Assembly: GCA_905209435.1 (NCBI GenBank)
Contig: CAJLTE010000118.1
Coordinates: forward strand, 1 to 8,077
Reading direction: 5' to 3'
Length of the DNA stretch: 8,077 bases
Origin: an uncultured Blautia sp.
GTDB taxonomy: Bacteria > Bacillota_A > Clostridia > Lachnospirales > Lachnospiraceae
How positions within the stretch are numbered: position 1 is the first letter of the stretch; each line of letters begins with the position of its first letter. The notes below the pieces were generated by a model, which was given only the letters and a program-made list of their open reading frames with translations, was not told the origin of the DNA and searched no databases. This document shows, piece after piece, positions 35-8,077 of this stretch. The translations under genes were made by a program, and so were the position numbers.

Positions 35-1087
35 CTATTTCCCGACAGCCCCTTGTTTGTTTTCATATTCTTCTACATTGTCCAATGTAACCTTATGGTA
101 CGGAATCCGTACATATTTTCCATTAAGCAGCGGAATCTCATCTGTTTTTCCATTTGTGGCGATCGCAAAAGCAAGATTCAGCATTTCCTGTGCCTGTCCT
201 TCTTTATCATTATAGACGGTTCCAAGCATCTCTTCATTCTTTACTGCATTCAGCCCTACATCTGTACCATCAATCCCCACTACACCGGGCCATTCCTCTT
301 TTGGAATCTGAGATGCCTTTAAGGCATCGATTGCACCCAGCGCCATATCATCATTATTCGCAATGATCAGTTCAATCTTATTGTCAAACTGAGTCAGCAT
401 GGCTGCTGTTTTGGTCTGCGCCTGTGCTCTGTTCCAGTTGGCAATGGCATATCCCAGTTTCTCTGTTTCCACACCTTTTTCAGCCATGGTATTTACAGAA
501 TATTCTGTGCGCACAATGGAGTCCTGATGTCCGGCTTCGCCCTCAAGCACTACATACTGGCAAATGCCATCTCCATTTTTATCCATAGAAGAATCTGTCT
601 TAAAAGCATCTGCTGCCAGTTCCCCTTCCAGTGTTCCTGACTCTGAAGCATCTGCCCCCACATAATACAGTTCCGTCCAGCGTTCCAGATCCTCTGCAAC
701 CAGTTCACGGTTAAAAAATATAATAGGAACATTATTATTCTCTGCAAGATCCGTGATTGTGGTAGGCTCTGTACGGTCTACCAGATTTACACATATCACA
801 TCGCATCCTTTATCGATCAGGCTCTTAACCTGTTCATTCTGCGTCAGCTGACTCTGAGAAGCATCCATGATCTCCATGTTGATCGCCACGCCGCTTTCCT
901 CTTCTTTGTCTGCTGTATATTTCGTGAATTCCGCCATCATTTCCGAAAGGAATGTGTCATACTGATCGTATAAAGTAACTCCTATTTTTATATTTTTGAT
1001 TGTCTCTTCTTCACTGCTCTTACATCCTCCGACATTAACAGCCACAATACATAAAACACCTGCCAGCACCAGATATTTCCTGCACAT
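35..1087 (-). CDS. mglB: Galactose/glucose-binding lipoprotein (MglB-like)
   Basis: This is a 350-residue extracellular solute-binding protein of the type 1 periplasmic-binding fold, which captures galactose/glucose for an Mgl-type ABC importer. The N-terminus has a hydrophobic signal and a lipobox V19-G20-G21-C22, so it should be a lipid-anchored lipoprotein. Compared from memory with E. coli MglB, all sugar contacts appear kept: D44, F46, N126, H187, D189, R193, W218, N245, D273 and N293. The calcium loop is also kept (D169, N171, D173, Q177, plus E239). The start at 1087 is preferred because GGGGG sits 7 nt upstream; an in-frame ATG at 1105 adds six residues but has no ribosome binding site. 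It follows the anchored binding-protein gene by 39 nt and is probably in the same transcript. Its position after the two-component genes, rather than before mglA, is unusual. The true importer receptor may be another gene beyond the right edge, in which case this could be a second receptor or a sensor subunit. Confidence 0.88.
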   Translation of the reverse strand: MCRKYLVLAGVLCIVAVNVGGCKSSEEETIKNIKIGVTLYDQYDTFLSEMMAEFTKYTADKEEESGVAINMEIMDASQSQLTQNEQVKSLIDKGCDVICVNLVDRTEPTTITDLAENNNVPIIFFNRELVAEDLERWTELYYVGADASESGTLEGELAADAFKTDSSMDKNGDGICQYVVLEGEAGHQDSIVRTEYSVNTMAEKGVETEKLGYAIANWNRAQAQTKTAAMLTQFDNKIELIIANNDDMALGAIDALKASQIPKEEWPGVVGIDGTDVGLNAVKNEEMLGTVYNDKEGQAQEMLNLAFAIATNGKTDEIPLLNGKYVRIPYHKVTLDNVEEYENKQGAVGK

Positions 1088-1126
1088 TTCTTTTCCCCCG
1101 TCCATCTTATCTGTTTTCGTATAACA

Positions 1127-2077
1127 TTATCTTACAGTTGGAAAAAGAATCTGACTTGTCTCTTCCGCATACAGATTCTCTTTTGTTACTCTGAAAAAAT
1201 CAACTTCTACCTGTTCCATTTTGTCAGTATGATATCTTGCCATTTGTGCAGCCAGAACCATACTCTCATATCCCATATAATATTCATTGGGAACTACAAG
1301 CTCCCGGATCAGCCCTTTATCCAGATAATATACCGTTTTTTCAGAGCGTCCTTCTCCATAGATCCGCCAGGAAACCCCTTCATTGTCAAAGAGCATCTCA
1401 ACTGCCTTTTCTGTATCATCATTCTCCAGCGAAATTACTGCATTCACCTGATTATTGACAAAATACTCTGCATTTCTGATTTTCTTATTAAGCTCATTTT
1501 CAGAAAACACCCAGGAAATCTCCACTCCTGCTTCTTCCAGACGTTCCTTTACTCCCTTCAGACGCTGTCTCATTCCAAGCTGACTCTGATTTCCACTGAA
1601 AATCCCAACCCTTGTCTCTCCGGCTTCGATTACCGCATCTGCCAGACTTTCTCCGAATTTTATATGATCTGTCATTACAGAAGTATAAAGTGTATCTGTT
1701 TCTATTCCCGTTTTCACCAATACTACCGAGTCTGCAGCTACTCCCTGCAAAACACTGTCAGCTTCGCCGGAATAGGGTTCAACGATTATCCCATCTGCCC
1801 CTCCTTCCAATTCACGCTTTACAATCGTATTCTCCTCCTGAACATTCTGAAAACTTCCTGTCGACACCAGATTCAGGTGTACCTGATTATCCTCAGCTCC
1901 CTGTTCCAGTCCTTCCCGGAACGCATTCCATCTGGTATTACTGCTGTCATTTACGATCACTGATACAGAAATATAATCGTCATCTTTTCCCTGATTGACC
2001 ATTCCGTAAGCACTGTATATGATTACAGATAAAATCACTGCCAGGAAGAGGATTGCGGATATTCTGTTCTTTTTCAT
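1127..2077 (-). CDS. Membrane-anchored sugar-binding-protein homologue, probable sensor partner of the kinase
   Basis: This 316-residue protein has the two-lobed type 1 periplasmic-binding fold of ribose/galactose/xylose receptors (Peripla_BP_4-like). Residues 1-6 are basic and residues 7-24 form one hydrophobic helix. The sugar-binding region runs from about residue 36 (ISVSVIVNDSSNTRW) to about 300. There is no cysteine anywhere, so it cannot be a lipoprotein, and no clear signal peptidase site follows the helix. It therefore probably stays attached by an uncleaved helix. It lacks the NNDxMA and GxDGT-type motifs that the neighbouring MglB homologue keeps, so its ligand probably differs. 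Its ATG overlaps the kinase TGA (ATGA), and a GGGGG lies 7 nt upstream inside the kinase gene, suggesting translational coupling. By analogy with XylFII of the C. beijerinckii XylFII-LytS-YesN system, it may present ligand to the kinase. The fold is well supported; the sensor role is inference. Confidence 0.82.
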   Translation of the reverse strand: MKKNRISAILFLAVILSVIIYSAYGMVNQGKDDDYISVSVIVNDSSNTRWNAFREGLEQGAEDNQVHLNLVSTGSFQNVQEENTIVKRELEGGADGIIVEPYSGEADSVLQGVAADSVVLVKTGIETDTLYTSVMTDHIKFGESLADAVIEAGETRVGIFSGNQSQLGMRQRLKGVKERLEEAGVEISWVFSENELNKKIRNAEYFVNNQVNAVISLENDDTEKAVEMLFDNEGVSWRIYGEGRSEKTVYYLDKGLIRELVVPNEYYMGYESMVLAAQMARYHTDKMEQVEVDFFRVTKENLYAEETSQILFPTVR

Positions 2078-3918
2078 TCCGCATCCCCCTTTCTGTCTGC
2101 TAAATGATAATCCTTTCCGCTCTCAAGGAGTTTCTGGGTTTCTGCCGTATACGGAACATATGGAATGTGAATCTGCACCAGCATTCCCTCATCCGAACAG
2201 CTATGAATAATCAGTCCATATCCTTCTCCGAAACGAAGCTTCAGACGGCTGTGCACATTAACCAGACCAACTCCTGATCCATGTTTATGCGGCCGTTCTT
2301 TTCCGTTGAGAAGTTCTGCTGCTTCTTCCTCAGGCATACCCAGTCCGTTGTCCTCTACTTCCAGATAAATATCCCCATCCTTTCTGTAACCGCGGACATG
2401 AATCTCTCCTTCTCCGTCCATAAATTCCATTCCATAATAAATGGCATTCTCAAGTAATGGCTGGAGAACCAGCTTCACAATACAGCCATCCAGTATCTCT
2501 TCCTCAATCTGAAAATCTATTTCAAAACTGTTCTTATATCTGATCTTCTGGATATTCATATAGTTCTGTGCATGCTTTACTTCATCTTCTATCCTGATCA
2601 CTGTTTTTCCTTTACTCAGACTGATACGGAACAGACTGGCAAGCTGTGTAATCATAAATACTGCATCATCATACCGCTCTCCCGTGATCATCCAGACAAT
2701 AGAATCCAGTGTATTATATAAGAAATGCGGATTGATCTGCGACTGCAGTGCATCAAGCTCACTCTTCCGTTTCTCTTCCTGTTCCACGACAATATCATCC
2801 ATCAGCTGCCGGATCTGGGCAACTGTAGACCGGAGAGTTTTTCCCAGATGTTCTACTTCCATGGAACCTCCTATATAAATATCCGGATCCATATTTCCGG
2901 TTTCCCACTCCTTCACAGAATTATTCAGACGGCGCAATGGTTTTGATATTCTTGCAGATACCATCTGATTCAGTATCACCACTGCCAGCACTGTCAGAGC
3001 CACCAGAAGAACTACCAGATTTCTCATACCGGTCATTCCCATACTGAAAGGTTTCATAGGGACCACACTGACCAGTTTCCATCCTGTATAACTGATGGTC
3101 TTTACTGTAACCAGCCGCTTTTCACCATGAAAATTTTCCTTTACAGTAGAATCCTCATATCCTGCTGCCTTATCATTATTTTCCTGATATAATCCCATAG
3201 GGATAAGATTTTGCTTCGGATGATAGATGATTTCTCCGTCAGATGCCATCAGATATACATATTCACCGGAAGTATCTGTGTTTGCCTTCTCAAGAAGCTG
3301 CTCAATACTGCTGTAATTCATATCAACCAGAAGAACGCCCTGCATGGAACTGCCATTTCTGGTGAGCTCTACCGTACGGCTCAAAGACACCACCCAGTAA
3401 TATCTGTAAGATGGATCATCAAAGAGATTCTGCACATGGGGTGTGGAGAAATGAAAATTTTCCAGTTCTCCGGCTGCATCCTGAAACCATTTCTGCGACT
3501 TTACATCAACACCATTTTTCTCTGTTGCAATAGGAGACGCCTCCGTCAGCTTTCCATCATTTGTGTAACATGCCACACTGATCAGCTTATCTTTATTAGC
3601 CTCATATAAAAGAGTCATGGCATCCTCAAGGCTCTCACTTCCAATATCTGTATTCTTGATCACACTATAATACATGGCATCTGAAATACGACGCATATTT
3701 CTCAGATAATCTTCCAGATTTATTGCAGTCTGATTGATCAGCTGTCTGGAATTCTCTACTGTAAGATTCTCTGCCTTTTTGCTGAACTGTTGATAGAGCA
3801 TAACCCCCAAAAAGCACATACAGCATACAGACAGAAGTGTAAAAGAAACCGATATAGTCATCTGCATGCTTCTTATTTTTTTTCTCCTGTGAGATAATAA
3901 TTTTTTAATCTTTTTCAC
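2074..3918 (-). CDS. YesM-type sensor histidine kinase with extracellular sensing domain
   Basis: This is a 614-residue membrane histidine kinase that should phosphorylate the response regulator encoded just upstream. A basic N-terminus precedes a first membrane helix (about 20-42). An extracellular region of about 250 residues (43-290) resembles a dCache ligand-binding domain, including DDPSYRYYWVVSLSR and the repeat-like VYLMASDGEIIYHP. A second helix follows (about 299-320), then HAMP (about 320-375) and a coiled-coil linker. The His_kinase core has phospho-acceptor H398 in QINPHFLYNTLD. The ATPase domain shows N491 (N box), D523-N-G-L-G (G1 box) and G547-S-G-V-G-L (G2 box), so it looks catalytically intact. 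The start is a GTG at 3918 with AGGAG 5 nt upstream. An internal ATG at residue 18 has its nearest AGGAG 16 nt away and is less likely. The gene lies 41 nt after the regulator and overlaps the following binding-protein gene by 4 nt. Confidence 0.93.
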   Translation of the reverse strand: MKKIKKLLSHRRKKIRSMQMTISVSFTLLSVCCMCFLGVMLYQQFSKKAENLTVENSRQLINQTAINLEDYLRNMRRISDAMYYSVIKNTDIGSESLEDAMTLLYEANKDKLISVACYTNDGKLTEASPIATEKNGVDVKSQKWFQDAAGELENFHFSTPHVQNLFDDPSYRYYWVVSLSRTVELTRNGSSMQGVLLVDMNYSSIEQLLEKANTDTSGEYVYLMASDGEIIYHPKQNLIPMGLYQENNDKAAGYEDSTVKENFHGEKRLVTVKTISYTGWKLVSVVPMKPFSMGMTGMRNLVVLLVALTVLAVVILNQMVSARISKPLRRLNNSVKEWETGNMDPDIYIGGSMEVEHLGKTLRSTVAQIRQLMDDIVVEQEEKRKSELDALQSQINPHFLYNTLDSIVWMITGERYDDAVFMITQLASLFRISLSKGKTVIRIEDEVKHAQNYMNIQKIRYKNSFEIDFQIEEEILDGCIVKLVLQPLLENAIYYGMEFMDGEGEIHVRGYRKDGDIYLEVEDNGLGMPEEEAAELLNGKERPHKHGSGVGLVNVHSRLKLRFGEGYGLIIHSCSDEGMLVQIHIPYVPYTAETQKLLESGKDYHLADRKGDAE

Positions 3919-3922
3919 TGAT

Positions 3923-3940
3923 GCTCCTGCTCCTGCTCCT
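3923..3940 (-). repeat. Triple AGGAGC repeat forming the kinase ribosome binding site
   Basis: Read on the minus strand, the 41-nt gap between regulator and kinase contains three exact head-to-tail copies of AGGAGC just before the GTG start. The copy nearest the start leaves 5 nt between AGGAG and GTG; the other two are 11 and 17 nt away. Each copy is itself a strong Shine-Dalgarno core. A short perfect repeat like this can gain or lose units by slippage, which could alter kinase translation, but only one allele is visible here. Confidence 0.8.
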
Positions 3941-3959
3941 GTAGCAAAATATGTTTTAT

Positions 3960-5564
3960 TTATCCCTGACTGTTCGCAGTACGGTATTTAGACGGTGACA
4001 TACTGTACTGTTTTTTAAACGCGTAACTGAAATAATTAGGATCTGCATACCCCACTTTTTCTGCAATAATATAAGTCTTATCACTGGTAGTCATGAGAAG
4101 CTCCACTGCTTTTTCCATTCTGTAATCTGTCAGAAAACTGATAAATGTTTTACCTGTTTCTTTTTTAAAGATCGTAGAAAAATATGCAGCACTCACACCC
4201 AGTTCACGACATACGGATTCTATAGTAATGTTTCTGTCGCTGTAATGTTCCTGCACATATTCCACAGCTCTGGAAACAAAAGATCTGGTACTTGCCTGCC
4301 GTTCCTGCTGAACGGTTTCCTGTAACTTCTCACAGACTTTCAGAAGCCACTGCTCCAGTTCCTTCGGGGATTCCATCTGCATGCACTTATCAAAAGCTTC
4401 CCCCTTTTCACCGTAAAATTCAACACTGTCCAACTGATTGTTATTGCAGAAACGAAAAAGTTCTGTAAGAAGTCCCATAATAAAAATCTGATATTTCTGC
4501 ATAGTAGTTCCATCCTGAAGAAACCTGCATACACAGTGACTGATTTCTGTTTCCAGTTCTTCCCTTGTTCCCATACGGATTCTTTTAAGAATCTTCTGTA
4601 TTTCCTGTTCCTCCCAACGTTCATCCACATTCTCCATAGGATCAATTTCCGCAATATTGATCGCACGCGCATTTCCATAGATCACGCGATAGGAAACAGC
4701 ACTCCTTGCACCCTGCCATGACAGCCGGATATCCGGCAGATTGTCACATACATATCCGATCCCTGCAGTTACCGTTGCTTCACATACATGCTTTGCCAGA
4801 CGACAGAACTGATCCATAAAATCCGTAAACGCAGTAATCTGTTCCTGTTCTTCAAACTGTGTGATTACCACAATATCTCCCAGATACATCAGAATCCTTG
4901 ATTTCCATTCCCCTTCCATATGTTCTTCTGCCAGCTTTTTCACTGATACCCCCAGCAAAAAAGGATTCATATTCTGTGGAATATCTGTAGTGCTGATATG
5001 TAAAATAGAAACTACATAACAGGGGCCGGTAAGATCAATCTGATAGTTAGAAAGATATTTTTCAACCTCCCCCTCAGGAATACGTCCGTCAATCAGAGAG
5101 GTATAGAAATTTTCCTGAAGAATCGGAAGACTTTCCATGTAATATTCTCTCAGCTTATCCACATTTCTCTTCTCATCCATCTCCCGCCCTATCTTCTCGT
5201 GGATACGCCCGAATACCTCTTTCAGGTTTCTGGCATCAATGGGTTTCAAAATATATTCCTCCACTTCAATCTGAATTGCTTCTTTTGCATATTCAAATTC
5301 ATCAAAACCTGAAAAAATAATAATCTTGACTGTGCGATAAAGTTCTTTCAGCTTACGACTCAGCGTGAGGCCATCCATATATGGCATCTTAATATCAGTC
5401 ATTACCACATCCGGCTGTAGTTCCTCTGCCATTTCCAGAGCTTCCACACCGTTGTGTGCATAACCCACAATCTGAAATCCCATGCTTTCCCAGTCCATTT
5501 TTTTCATAATAATCTGGATAACATCTTCCTCATCATCCACAAGCAGTACCGAATACTTCTCCAT
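3960..5564 (-). CDS. YesN-type response regulator with AraC-family DNA-binding domain
   Basis: This is a 534-residue cytoplasmic response regulator and transcription factor, the natural partner of the YesM-type kinase encoded next. The receiver domain (about 4-122) has acidic pocket D10-D11, phospho-acceptor D57 (MTDIKMP), S85 (FSGFDEF) and K107-P108, all intact. The middle region (about 140-420) is typical in length for this group. The part with AGIG (267-270) and S282...G297 recalls the degenerate GGDEF-like segment of CdaR/YesN regulators, a tentative resemblance. The C-terminal 100 residues (429-528) form two helix-turn-helix units of the AraC type, ending in VGYADPNYFSYAFKKQY and SPSKYR. 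The start chosen is ATG at 5564, with AGGTG 5 nt upstream and the receiver beginning immediately. A GTG at 5630 would add 22 residues not expected in the family and has no ribosome binding site. The likely target is the mgl promoter outside this window (inference). Confidence 0.93.
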   Translation of the reverse strand: MEKYSVLLVDDEEDVIQIIMKKMDWESMGFQIVGYAHNGVEALEMAEELQPDVVMTDIKMPYMDGLTLSRKLKELYRTVKIIIFSGFDEFEYAKEAIQIEVEEYILKPIDARNLKEVFGRIHEKIGREMDEKRNVDKLREYYMESLPILQENFYTSLIDGRIPEGEVEKYLSNYQIDLTGPCYVVSILHISTTDIPQNMNPFLLGVSVKKLAEEHMEGEWKSRILMYLGDIVVITQFEEQEQITAFTDFMDQFCRLAKHVCEATVTAGIGYVCDNLPDIRLSWQGARSAVSYRVIYGNARAINIAEIDPMENVDERWEEQEIQKILKRIRMGTREELETEISHCVCRFLQDGTTMQKYQIFIMGLLTELFRFCNNNQLDSVEFYGEKGEAFDKCMQMESPKELEQWLLKVCEKLQETVQQERQASTRSFVSRAVEYVQEHYSDRNITIESVCRELGVSAAYFSTIFKKETGKTFISFLTDYRMEKAVELLMTTSDKTYIIAEKVGYADPNYFSYAFKKQYSMSPSKYRTANSQG

Positions 5565-5647
5565 CTCTACACCTGTCTCTAAATTTCTGTTTTTTGTCCT
5601 GTAACTGTTCAGCGCCTTCACAATCAGCACTCTACTAAATGGTTATC
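5565..5647 (-). other. 83-nt gap before the response regulator
   Basis: This gap separates the small membrane protein stop from the preferred regulator ATG. Part of it (up to 5630) is open in the regulator frame from a GTG, but that GTG has no Shine-Dalgarno sequence. AGGTG at 5570-5574 is the ribosome binding site for the ATG at 5564. I see no hairpin followed by a U tract and no convincing promoter pair. Confidence 0.6.
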
Positions 5648-5980
5648 TTATTTCTTCTTATGTGAATTCGGAGCTCCGTATTTATCATTCATACGTTTCC
5701 ATAAAATACCGAATACTACAAACCACACCGCAATTTCCACAACTGCCGCATGGACACTGAAGTACATTAAGATTGCCATAACAAAAGAACCTGCCGCAAG
5801 AAAAAGTATCAGCTTTCCTGATTCTGCCACATATTTCTCTTTGTCCTTAAGTTTCTTTCCATTATCTTTCCCTGTGATGGATTCTGTATCATGAAATATC
5901 AGCAGACGGGCTGCATAATATCCAAGAACAAGAGTCATCATCAGCGGAATCATTACGTTTGATAAATAACTGTTTCCCAT
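5648..5980 (-). CDS. Small three-helix membrane protein of unknown function
   Basis: I do not recognise this 110-residue protein. It has three hydrophobic stretches: about 8-29, 56-75 and 77-95. A strongly charged, lysine-rich linker (30-55, GKDNGKKLKDKEKY) joins the first and second, and the basic tail ends in HKKK. By the positive-inside rule the N-terminus would be outside, the linker and tail inside, and helices 2-3 a tight hairpin. There are no cysteines and no catalytic-looking motif. The ATG at 5980 has AGAGGAG upstream with 9 nt spacing, a well-formed site, which supports a real gene. It sits between the permease terminator and the regulator, as the first gene of the signalling half. 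It could be an accessory to the permease or to the kinase; neither is shown by sequence. Confidence 0.8.
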   Translation of the reverse strand: MGNSYLSNVMIPLMMTLVLGYYAARLLIFHDTESITGKDNGKKLKDKEKYVAESGKLILFLAAGSFVMAILMYFSVHAAVVEIAVWFVVFGILWKRMNDKYGAPNSHKKK

Positions 5981-6012: not shown

Positions 6013-6041
6013 TATATATAAAGAAAGGACCGTCGTACCAA
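6013..6041 (-). promoter_or_regulatory. Weak promoter-like pair overlapping the terminator
   Basis: On the minus strand TTGGTA (6041-6036) and TATATA (6018-6013) are separated by exactly 17 nt, each matching the sigma-70/sigma-A consensus at four of six positions. A start near 6006 would give a leader of about 25 nt carrying the AGAGGAG site of the small membrane protein gene. The match is modest and AT-rich tails produce such boxes by chance. Confidence 0.3.
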
Positions 6042-6053
6042 AACGGCGGCCCT
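6013..6053 (-). terminator. Probable intrinsic terminator after mglC
   Basis: On the minus strand, AGGGCCGCCGU (6053-6043) pairs with ACGACGGUCCU (6036-6026) across a 6-nt loop UUUGGU. Ten of 11 positions pair, including one G-U wobble, with one C-A mismatch. A U-rich tail UUCUUUAUAUAUA follows directly. The hairpin begins about 25 nt after the mglC stop. The mismatch and A-interrupted tail suggest termination may be partial, which would let some transcription continue into the signalling genes. Confidence 0.75.
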
Positions 6054-6077: not shown

Positions 6078-7067
6078 TTATTTTCTTGCAATGTATTTTC
6101 TGATATCCAGTGAAATAGCAATGAAGATGATAACACCAAGTGCGATGTACTGAGCGTATGCATTTACTCCCAGGAACTGAAGCGCTGCTTTCAGGAACTC
6201 GAATACTGCAACACCGATCAGAGCGGAAGAAACTTTACCACGACCACCGGTTACAGATACACCACCGATGGTGCAGGCTGCGATTGCTTCCATTTCATAA
6301 CCATAACCTAACTGAACTGATGCACCGCCGGCTTTTGCACCCATCATGAATCCAGCAAGACCATACATAGCTGCTGCTTTTGCATAAATGATAATCAGAG
6401 TTTTCTTAACCGGAACACCTGCAACTTCTGCTGCCTGTGGGTTACCACCGATTGCATACATATATTTTCCATGACGAGTCATGTTAAAGATGAACCATGT
6501 AATAATACCAACCAGGATTGCGATCCATACCAGATAGCTCATTCCAAGGAATTTGCCTGTAGCAAGTCCTGTATACTCACTTACATATCCTCCAAGAGGA
6601 GTTGCATTTGTATAAATACTGCAGATACCATAAACGATTTCCATCATAGCCATTGTGGAAATGAATGGCGGTACGTTCAGGTATGCAATGAAGAATCCTG
6701 TTACCAGACCGAATGCTGCACAGATGAGCATAACGATCAGAAGTGCAAGCCAGATGTTTAATGGTTTCATGTTTGGATAGAACTTAGCGGAATAATCCAT
6801 TTTCTGAAGCAGCGTACCTGCGATACATCCGCCGAAACCGATCATACGACCTGCAGAAAGGTCACAACCTGCTGTGATGATACATCCGGCAATACCAAGT
6901 GCAATTACCAGACGGAAACTCATAGTTGCAAGAATGTTTGTCAGGTTGTTAGTTGTCAGGAAGTTTGGTCTTGTGATTCCTGTAAATACAATGAGGCAAA
7001 CCATGATGATGATAACACCATAATTCGTCATGATCTCTTTAAAGCTTAATTTCTTTTTGTTACCCAT
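6078..7067 (-). CDS. mglC: Galactose/methyl-galactoside ABC importer permease MglC
   Basis: This 329-residue membrane permease of the BPD_transp_2 (ribose/galactose/xylose) family forms the sugar channel that pairs with MglA and a binding protein. It matches E. coli MglC in order and motif: TNNLTNILATMSFRLVIALG (39-58), TAGCDLSAGR (65-74), FFIAYLNVPPFISTM (125-139), the cytoplasmic ATPase-contact loop with AIGGNPQAAEVAGV (205-218), and EAIAACTIGGVSVTGGRG (260-277). Eight to ten hydrophobic helices are visible and the length is close to the usual 330-340. The start at 7067 is chosen because GGGAGGAG lies 7 nt upstream in the gap after mglA. An ATG at 7103 would overlap mglA and has no comparable site. 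The mglA stop is 19 nt upstream, so the two are co-transcribed. A probable terminator follows the gene. Confidence 0.95.
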   Translation of the reverse strand: MGNKKKLSFKEIMTNYGVIIIMVCLIVFTGITRPNFLTTNNLTNILATMSFRLVIALGIAGCIITAGCDLSAGRMIGFGGCIAGTLLQKMDYSAKFYPNMKPLNIWLALLIVMLICAAFGLVTGFFIAYLNVPPFISTMAMMEIVYGICSIYTNATPLGGYVSEYTGLATGKFLGMSYLVWIAILVGIITWFIFNMTRHGKYMYAIGGNPQAAEVAGVPVKKTLIIIYAKAAAMYGLAGFMMGAKAGGASVQLGYGYEMEAIAACTIGGVSVTGGRGKVSSALIGVAVFEFLKAALQFLGVNAYAQYIALGVIIFIAISLDIRKYIARK

Positions 7068-7074
7068 TATTCTT

Positions 7075-7082
7075 CTCCTCCC
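7075..7082 (-). promoter_or_regulatory. Ribosome binding site fixing the mglC start
   Basis: GGGAGGAG on the minus strand is a near-perfect anti-16S match. It leaves 7 nt to the ATG at 7067, inside the 19-nt gap after the mglA stop. This decides against the in-frame ATG at 7103. Confidence 0.85.
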
Positions 7083-7086
7083 ATCA

Positions 7087-8077
7087 TCAGAATTTTGTAG
7101 CATAACTCATAACGTGTTCCTGAGTCATTTCGTCTTTCTCTGTAAGTTCTCCACGCATCTTGCCGTTGCACATTACATAAACACGGTCAGACATGCCAAG
7201 CAGTTCTGCCATTTCTGAAGAAACCATAATGATGGCCTTGCCCTCTGCTGCCAGATCATTCATAATCTCATAAATCTCATGTTTCGCACCAACGTCGATA
7301 CCACGGGTAGGCTCATCCATGATCAGGATATCCGGATCATTTGCCAGCCATCTTGCTACGATAACCTTCTGCTGGTTACCACCGGACAGGTTTGCGATAT
7401 GCTCCTGCATATTCGGAGTCTTGATACGCAGCTTCTTGATACTGTCGTCTACGATTCCGTTGATCGTCTTATGATCAAGCACAAATCCGGCTTTCAAATG
7501 TTTGTTATAAATAGAAACACCTACATTATCCTTGATGGAAAGACATCCAAAAATACCATTTCCACGTCTGTCCTCTGTGATCAGACCGATTCCGGCTTTC
7601 ATGGCATCTGCCGGATGTTTGATATTTACTTTTTTGCCTTTAATATAAATTTCTCCGGATTTGATCGCTCTCATTCCGAAAACGCCTTCCAGAAGCTCTG
7701 TTCTCTGAGCTCCTACCAGACCACCAAATCCAAGAATCTCACCTTTGCGGAGTGTGAAAGATACATCCTGGAATGATTTCTCATGGATAGAACTTAAATG
7801 TTTTACCTCCATGATCACTTCTCCCGGTTTATTCTTTCTTTCCGGATATACATTGGTCAGCTCACGTCCTACCATCTTGGTAATGATATCTTCTGTAGTC
7901 ATTTCGGCTGCCGGCCAGGTTCCTACATATGTACCATCTCGCATGATGGTGATATCATCTGCAATACGTTTGATCTCATCCATCTTATGAGAAATGTAAA
8001 CCATGGCAACACCCTTATCTCGCAGATCATTCATGATCCTGAAAAGAGCTTCTACTTCGTTATCTGATAATGAGGAT
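7087..8077 (-). CDS. mglA: Galactose/methyl-galactoside ABC importer ATPase MglA (5' end missing)
   Basis: This is the last 329 residues of an ATPase that is normally about 500 long and powers import through MglC. The frame runs open to the window edge, so the ATG at 8034 is internal, not the start. The fragment opens in the D-loop of the first nucleotide-binding domain (SSLSDNEVEALF), then its H-loop (VYISHKMDEI). The second domain is complete. Its P-loop is degenerate (GFGGLVGAQRTELL, no GK[ST]). It also has signature LSGGNQQKV (fragment residues 230-238), Walker B ILIMDEPTRGIDVGA (250-264) and VSSEM in place of a canonical H-loop. A degenerate second P-loop is normal for this sugar family. 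The remaining 170-180 residues, including the first Walker A, lie outside. The tail YATKF and TGA precede mglC by 19 nt. Confidence 0.95.
   Translation of the reverse strand, partial: SSLSDNEVEALFRIMNDLRDKGVAMVYISHKMDEIKRIADDITIMRDGTYVGTWPAAEMTTEDIITKMVGRELTNVYPERKNKPGEVIMEVKHLSSIHEKSFQDVSFTLRKGEILGFGGLVGAQRTELLEGVFGMRAIKSGEIYIKGKKVNIKHPADAMKAGIGLITEDRRGNGIFGCLSIKDNVGVSIYNKHLKAGFVLDHKTINGIVDDSIKKLRIKTPNMQEHIANLSGGNQQKVIVARWLANDPDILIMDEPTRGIDVGAKHEIYEIMNDLAAEGKAIIMVSSEMAELLGMSDRVYVMCNGKMRGELTEKDEMTQEHVMSYATKF

Follow-up and report, generated by a model that had tools for sequence, protein, structure and literature searches.

The question raised by this locus is how many genes make up the sugar sensor that lies beside a galactose/glucose (mgl) importer in an uncultured Blautia sp. 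The stretch of DNA analyzed (contig CAJLTE010000118.1, 8,077 nt, called the window in its full length) had been read in an earlier note as holding a three-component sensor, formed by a YesN regulator, a YesM kinase and an anchored binding protein. Comparison with related loci shows that the window carries a four-gene unit, here called the quartet, in which this anchored substrate-binding protein (SBP), termed SBPx, is followed by a second one, the glucose/galactose-binding protein (GGBP) homologue GGBP2. We consider it rather probable that the products of these genes (35-5564) form a sensor of four components in the membrane, which reads glucose/galactose outside the cell and drives the importer. 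The four genes are:

3960..5564, minus strand: YesN-type response regulator (RR, component 1), with Response_reg, GGDEF_2 and HTH_18/HTH_AraC domains
2074..3918, minus strand: YesM-type sensor histidine kinase (HK, component 2), with dCache_1 (76.7 bits), His_kinase (92.4 bits) and HATPase_c
1127..2077, minus strand: SBPx, anchored binding protein without cysteine (component 3), Peripla_BP_4 (91 bits)
35..1105, minus strand: GGBP2, galactose/glucose-binding lipoprotein (component 4), Peripla_BP_4

The positions and domains of the open reading frames (ORFs) confirm that the YesN, YesM and binding protein genes follow one another on one strand and that the last two overlap by 4 nt (2074-2077). 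The GGBP2 gene begins 21 nt past the end of SBPx. For the regulator an alternative upstream GTG start is possible at 5630. The kinase has hydrophobic segments at residues 22-40 and 302-320 by hydropathy, corresponding to two transmembrane (TM) helices with dCache_1 as ectodomain. The complete order on the minus strand is mglA (partial), mglC, a 110-aa ORF, YesN regulator, YesM kinase, SBPx and GGBP2, so the link to an mgl importer is borne out by mglC and the partial mglA just upstream.

SBPx was used as query against 397 genomes of the family, probably the Lachnospiraceae, to which Agathobacter rectalis and some of the database names belong, and 110 genomes matched at E <= 1e-10. The search scored at most five candidates per genome, so that an absence is no proof. 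Neighborhoods were examined for the best 121 of 130 listed places, leaving out the nine weakest; ORFs were called from the first start, which makes some N-termini overlong. In 119/121 loci a kinase gene immediately precedes that of the SBPx relative, the binding protein being found without kinase in two loci only, and a regulator gene is upstream in 115/121. The loci were split by the score of their kinase against the window kinase, with at least 450 bits in class A and about 276-330 bits in class B. Class A comprises 80 loci plus L082, with a kinase frame broken in two, which makes 81 loci from 80 of the 397 genomes. Class B comprises 40 loci in 38 genomes, two of them the kinase-less ones, and both classes are present in 14 genomes.

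Immediately downstream of SBPx a GGBP2 homologue was found in 78/81 class A loci, with a median gap of 16 nt. The three exceptions are L038, with a GGBP2 frame broken in two, and the loci L086 and L097, which run into contig ends. The complete order RR-HK-SBPx-GGBP2 is present in 75/81 loci (the others are L038, L041, L086, L094, L096 and L097); the exact 4-nt overlap of the kinase and SBPx genes is less general (29/81). Because GGBP2 follows SBPx so regularly and the exceptions are explained, the sensor of the window is a quartet, whereas class B is a plain trio, in which a weak GGBP2-like gene stands at that place in one locus out of 40 (L151). The trio of genes that the earlier note described is thus real, but it is not the complete unit, and a unit of these three genes only was rejected for class A. 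The conservation of the gene group across genomes of the family, which the note had proposed to check, holds for the quartet in 80/397 genomes, beside MglC-like or other permeases of the CUT2 family. In wider samples, judged by score alone, 6/391 genomes of the class had SBPx-profile matches of at least 250 bits and 2/398 genomes of the phylum matched at E <= 1e-55; the thresholds differ, so it is in rough contrast only that class A appears concentrated in this family. Within class A the median pairwise identity is 0.23 for SBPx, 0.43 for GGBP2 and 0.46 for the kinase, SBPx thus changing fastest.

The class B trios (e.g., L098, L113, L133 and L146) combine a pocket-intact, anchored and mostly lipobox-less SBP with YesM/YesN beside CUT2 importers. 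The GGBP2 gene of L038 (9982-11066) and the kinase gene of L082 (9972-11776) each consist of two adjacent ORFs and are either pseudogenes or sequencing errors.

The role of SBPx within the quartet has to be judged from its anchor and its pocket. As the earlier note had described, the protein has no cysteine (0 among 316 aa) and one N-terminal hydrophobic helix, at residues 9-27 by hydropathy and 2-27 in the AlphaFold2 model. This model (pLDDT, the predicted local distance difference test, 87.3) has the SBP fold and matches XylFII, AraP and GanP. The following sites of SBPx are referred to below:

1997..2074, minus strand: codons of the N-terminal anchor helix, residues 2-27 (AlphaFold2 model)
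1562..1564, minus strand: codon of Arg172, column of pocket Arg158, retained
1424..1426, minus strand: codon of Glu218, column of pocket Asn211
1349..1351, minus strand: codon of Gly243, column of pocket D236

In Gram-positive organisms CUT2 transport SBPs are lipoproteins or carry a cleaved export signal. In SBPx a lipoprotein-like Cys is absent from all 82 rows (6/40 in class B SBPs, by a simple rule of our own) and the N-terminal helix is long. The pocket was compared in 82 class A rows, window included, with positions in E. coli GGBP numbering, where D236 is the hallmark pocket Asp. In the D236 column SBPx has Gly in 71 rows, Ala in 8, Ser in 2 and Cys in 1, but never Asp, whereas Asp is found in 40/40 class B SBPs and 74/78 GGBP2; XylFII, GanP and two further solved SBPs also keep Asp at the aligned place. 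The N211 column contains Asp 62, Glu 5 and Asn 5 in SBPx vs Asn in 39/40 class B rows, and R158 is Arg in 51/82 and 40/40, respectively. F16 is replaced by R, Q, Y or N in 62/82 SBPx and N91 by E or G in 58/82, and the letters at H152 and D154 are scattered. The class B pocket is RbsB-like (of 40: F16 37, Asp at N91 39, R158 40, N211 39, D236 40, Gln at N256 40), and all five of the class B pocket letters scored are present in 39/40 class B rows; no SBPx row has even three of them. The mean conservation percentile of the pocket columns (0 being most conserved) is 0.38 for SBPx, over nine columns as W183 is too gappy, vs 0.13 for GGBP2 and 0.12 for class B over ten columns each. Judged by these columns, the sugar pocket of the kinase-linked SBP in XylFII-type systems is lacking in SBPx and present in the class B trios and in GGBP2. 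Binding of a monosaccharide in the ordinary way is therefore very improbable for SBPx.

SBPx could possibly bind some other ligand, since part of its cleft is conserved in new letters. This would lead to a dual-input sensor, in which SBPx reads a different ligand, GGBP2 reads glucose/galactose and the kinase integrates both. Gly243 (71/82) and the acidic residue at 218 (Asp or Glu, 67/82) fit this explanation, as these columns are changed but not simply drifting. However, most pocket columns vary like average ones, as the percentile above indicates, and no candidate ligand emerged, so we regard a dual input as doubtful, though worth keeping in mind.

In contrast to SBPx, the second SBP of the quartet has an intact pocket. 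The best NCBIfam match of GGBP2 is MglB (PRK15395, 236.6 bits), short of the equivalog cut-off of 420 bits; MglB1, the importer's own binding protein, of L035 is likewise below this cut-off (201 bits). In the PDB the top match is MglB (8fxu, E 1e-76), with an alignment that spans the pocket motifs. GGBP2 of the window carries D50, F52, N132, H193, D195, R199, W224, N251, D279 and N299, that is, all ten letters expected from E. coli GGBP for a glucose/galactose pocket. Across the 78 GGBP2 rows D14, N91, H152, D154 and R158 are invariant, followed by W183 (76), F16 (75), N211 (75), D236 (74) and N256 (56). These letters equal those of MglB1, except for H152 and the looser N256. The H152 column (H193 in the window) is His in 79/79 GGBP2 vs Asn in 25/25 MglB1, a split that might reflect different sugar preferences of the sensor and the importer.

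The lipobox of GGBP2 (VNVGGC) lies as follows:

1022..1024, minus strand: codon of lipobox Cys28 of GGBP2 (from the sequence)

A lipoprotein-like Cys was found in 60/79 GGBP2 and 22/25 MglB1, one of the other three being cut by a contig end. The lipobox rules are simple patterns of our own; the figure of 60/79 belongs to the looser pattern, and a stricter one gives 39/79. Of the 19 GGBP2 without such a Cys, 18 have a hydrophobic N-terminal segment. Both SBPs of the quartet hence look membrane-held, as far as can be read from their N-termini. In a tree of 65 rows, hand-picked from the families and with several long branches, SBPx forms one clade (100/99), GGBP2 (95/96) is separate from MglB1 (100/94), and the class B SBPs fall in the SBPx half.

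The GGBP2 without a lipoprotein-like Cys (L069, L078, L089, L115, L126 and others) look as if a TM anchor had replaced the lipid anchor. Two MglB1 seemingly lack a lipobox (L001 2646-3758, L091 10066-11103), which is unusual for a transport SBP of a Gram-positive organism.

Whether GGBP2 is an additional SBP or the one that feeds the transporter depends on the importer genes beside the sensor. In the window these are:

7087..8076, minus strand: mglA-type CUT2 importer ATPase, 5' end beyond the window
6078..7103, minus strand: mglC-type permease, BPD_transp_2, NCBIfam PRK09478 MglC 335 bits (cut-off 386)

The covered part of mglA matches the xylose-type ATPase (407 bits) and MglA (392 bits) of NCBIfam, both below cut-off because the gene is truncated at the window edge. 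In 69 class A loci an mglA homologue is present at full length and on the same strand. A separate SBP gene stands just upstream of mglA in 68 of these, and the remaining locus lies at the end of its contig; therefore GGBP2 is an extra SBP, distinct from the importer's own. The permeases at the 80 class A loci counted are MglC-like, defined by more than 300 bits vs the window permease, in 25 cases, longer than 500 aa in 28 and of another CUT2 kind in 16, with none in reach in 11. A sensor bound to one importer type was rejected on account of these 16 loci. By length alone the permeases above 500 aa could be labelled GguB-like, but for the two that were tested, those of L048 and A. rectalis, the best match is MglC, at 268-270 bits (cut-off 386), with about 215 additional N-terminal residues. 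For the importer ATPase of A. rectalis it is MglA, with 657 bits (cut-off 828).

The long permeases (L157 13371-15020, L048 3686-5344 and others) stand beside an SBP of 427-434 aa without NCBIfam match. L069, from the group with other CUT2 permeases, has GguB/ChvE above the NCBIfam cut-offs.

The lack of a lipobox, the changed pocket and the importers' own SBP led us to reject SBPx as an ordinary transport SBP, and the suggestion of the earlier note that it does not feed a transporter holds. The same findings bear on the classical three-component sensor, in which sugar binding to SBPx drives the kinase while GGBP2 merely feeds the transporter. The place of SBPx beside the kinase in 119/121 loci, its fold, which is like that of XylFII, AraP and GanP, and the Arg kept at R158 in 51/82 rows would agree with this reading. 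However, the hallmark Asp is gone in all 82 SBPx, none of them retains three class B pocket letters, and the importers have their own SBP in 68/69 loci, which makes it unlikely. A sharing of GGBP2 between importer and sensor appears quite unlikely as well. ChvE serves both uptake and VirA in this way, and the near identity of the GGBP2 and MglB1 pockets, H152 and N256 apart, is in its favor. Against it, GGBP2 forms a clade of its own apart from MglB1, is retained beside other CUT2 importer types, accompanies a dedicated transport SBP in 68/69 loci, and in 19/79 cases lacks the lipoprotein-like Cys, with a hydrophobic N-terminal segment in 18 of these.

A target of the regulator was sought by a motif search upstream of the importer SBP genes in class A loci. 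For 24 MglB1 promoters the log-likelihood was 219 vs 88-96 in shuffled sequences, and for 25 promoters of long-permease importers 338 vs 88-95 (four shuffles each, with 12 random starts vs 40 for the real set). The predicted operator consists of half-sites near AAAAAATTCTATA, arranged as a direct repeat. Only the 25 promoters of long-permease importers served to train a half-site matrix, and 23 of them score at least 12 bits. Among held-out promoters this score was reached by 24/39 (16/24 MglB1 and 8/15 other importer promoters), vs 0/75 upstream regions of class A regulators, 0/35 of class B regulators and 2/390 shuffles. Mechanically called ORFs, many of which are not genes, gave 1/399. In a stricter control, made up of the remaining intergenic regions at the class A loci, 4/349 reached 12 bits; three of the four precede importer genes (L067, L078 and L082) and the fourth an unassigned gene in L075. 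When the matrix was refitted on all 64 promoters, 61 scored at least 12 bits, and in 54 the repeats are spaced by 21-22 nt. In 45/64 they are followed by a TATAAT-like box (5-6 of 6 letters), exactly 18 nt past the second half-site in 39, and the downstream half-site therefore covers the place of the -35 element. Such a position is as expected for an activator of the AraC/YesN type.

The pair in L075, upstream of the ORF 6738-7754 (plus strand), scores 23.9 bits and is the sole strong pair outside importer promoters in the intergenic control. This gene is possibly a further member of the regulon.

Several features of the quartet are known from other sensors. XylFII-LytS-YesN of Clostridium beijerinckii is a three-component precedent, and a further three-component system of SBP, kinase and regulator for an ABC-imported (ATP-binding cassette) sugar has one SBP with intact function. 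The window shares with XylFII-LytS-YesN the YesN-type regulator with receiver and AraC HTH, and a His_kinase sensor with an extracytoplasmic domain beside the SBP gene (119/121). However, the pocket Asp that SBPx has exchanged for Gly is present in XylFII, and XylFII is the one sensing SBP, whereas the quartet has GGBP2 as a second one in 78/81 loci. The comparison drawn in the earlier note, of a related but different system, thus stands for the make-up of regulator and kinase, but not for a single, pocket-bearing sensing SBP. The glucose-galactose binding protein GanP of Geobacillus stearothermophilus (PDB 6gq0, 6gt9, 6guq), unlike SBPx, keeps the pocket Asp and is itself the sugar reader. 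Searched by sequence against the PDB, the kinase ectodomain gave weak chemoreceptor matches alone (PctA and others).

Passages of PMC10384115 give a single sensing SBP for each of XylFII-LytS-YesN, AraPST and CuaDSR. They describe for CuaDSR of Ruminiclostridium cellulolyticum that CuaD attaches to the kinase ectodomain whether or not ligand is present, whereas CuaA does not. In this system, as in the quartet, the sensing SBP (CuaD) is separate from the transport SBP (CuaA); however, in the same passages CuaD is the only sensing SBP, a predicted lipoprotein that binds cellobiose, whereas the quartet has two SBPs on the sensing side.

LevQRST of Streptococcus mutans resembles the quartet in composition, as it clusters kinase, regulator and two SBPs. 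Passages of PMC3043104 present it as a four-component system with two membrane SBPs, LevQ being essential for the integrity of the complex and LevT modulating the response, and list similar operons in species such as C. acetobutylicum and Dorea longicatena. However, by their account LevS has up to five predicted TM segments and little outside, whereas the window kinase has two hydrophobic segments and dCache_1. They place no functional ABC transporter near LevQRST and name a phosphotransferase system (PTS) as target, whereas the window has an adjacent CUT2 importer. The gene order is levTSRQ instead of RR-HK-SBPx-GGBP2, and the pairing of a pocket-changed with a pocket-intact SBP, as in the quartet, does not occur in these passages. 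The two-segment dCache kinase, the CUT2 importer with its operator and the split between pocket-intact and pocket-changed SBP place the quartet outside the LevQRST family, a separation drawn from these descriptions and not from LevQ and LevT sequences. The quartet thus belongs to neither the XylFII-LytS-YesN nor the LevQRST family and is a variation on a known sensor type. In the open-licence literature we recognized no description of it, which does not show that none exists.

A four-component sensor could work as follows. GGBP2, held at the membrane by its lipid, would bind glucose/galactose and, once loaded, dock on SBPx. SBPx, anchored by its helix beside the kinase and without the usual sugar pocket, would serve as coupling subunit, and the SBPx/GGBP2 pair would shift the dCache ectodomain of the YesM kinase. 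Phosphorylated YesN would then bind the paired direct repeats overlapping the -35 element of the importer operon and activate mglBAC; in relatives it would also activate the mgl-like importers with extended permease and some other CUT2 importers. We put forward more tentatively, and with some reserve, the wider proposal that a pocket-less, TM-anchored SBP acts as pseudo-receptor, by which a separate, sugar-reading GGBP is obligatorily linked to a dCache kinase, with one conserved direct-repeat operator driving several kinds of CUT2 importers in about one fifth of the sampled species of the family (80/397 genomes).

A number of observations weigh against the four-component reading. The kinase and regulator of CuaDSR alone still responded to sugar, according to passages of PMC10384115, so that the SBP need not be the sole sugar reader. 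The conserved Arg, acidic residue and Gly in the cleft of SBPx (51/82, 67/82 and 71/82 at R158, N211 and Gly243) would be compatible with a ligand of its own. A mirror-tree comparison did not discriminate, as the partial r of the control pair SBPx-RR (0.70) exceeded SBPx-HK (0.51) and SBPx-GGBP2 (0.57). The model of the kinase ectodomain had a pLDDT of 45.8 from a shallow alignment and was left unused. Of the class B importers, 2/20 exceed 12 bits too, and part of the operator signal may come from shared descent of related promoters. The window itself has no importer promoter, and its only match above 12 bits (13.6 bits, spacing 19) sits in the mglA coding sequence and is probably due to chance; as the window ends short of the mglB promoter, an operator in this genome is inferred from the relatives. 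L001, the nearest relative whose mglB promoter was examined closely, scores 10.7.

A conserved neighborhood without any complex, in which the kinase senses via its own dCache and both SBPs buffer or scavenge sugar, would suit the full dCache_1 ectodomain and the response of the two-component part of CuaDSR alone (passages of PMC10384115), but is very improbable, given that the genes stay adjacent and in order nearly without exception at 81 loci with differing importers and that both SBPs appear to have membrane anchors.

The four-component reading gives a testable account of how many members of the family, including the gut commensal A. rectalis, may sense extracellular glucose/galactose, and the predicted operator can be tested directly. 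Binding in one SBP and coupling in the other would be a division of labor that could help to explain the two-SBP design of LevQRST. The analysis also tells pocket-intact trios apart from pocket-changed quartets, two sensor classes with SBPs that are annotated under generic names only.

In A. rectalis DFI.5.28 the quartet is located on a plasmid of 251,725 bp (NZ_CP143948.1, 107647-113132). Together with its importer, which lies upstream, it takes up 7648-17925 of L157, and genes for a carbohydrate ABC importer, an alpha-galactosidase and a sucrose phosphorylase lie on the other side. Identity to the window is 50% for the kinase, 50% for GGBP2 and 23% for SBPx. The importer promoter has an operator score of 28.1, though it was outside the training set. 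SBPx of this strain is annotated merely as 'substrate-binding domain-containing protein'.

Two minor features lie between mglC and the regulator in the window:

6029..6047, minus strand: terminator-like hairpin 3' of mglC (consensus scan)
5648..5980, minus strand: 110-aa ORF with two membrane helices, membership uncertain

The hairpin could possibly lower read-through into the sensor genes; the consensus scan found eight terminator-like sites in the window vs 4.1 (standard deviation 2.4) in shuffles, which is a weak excess. The 110-aa ORF has no match in Pfam or NCBIfam. L001, from a metagenome-assembled genome (MAG) of the Clostridiales, has the gene order of the window with mglB added in first place and this ORF missing. 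Homologues of the ORF occur beside the regulator in 4 of 61 loci examined (L035 13455-13778, L036 3717-4034, L037 13493-13813 and L038 5098-5415); the one in L038 stands immediately before the regulator, with no mglC in reach.

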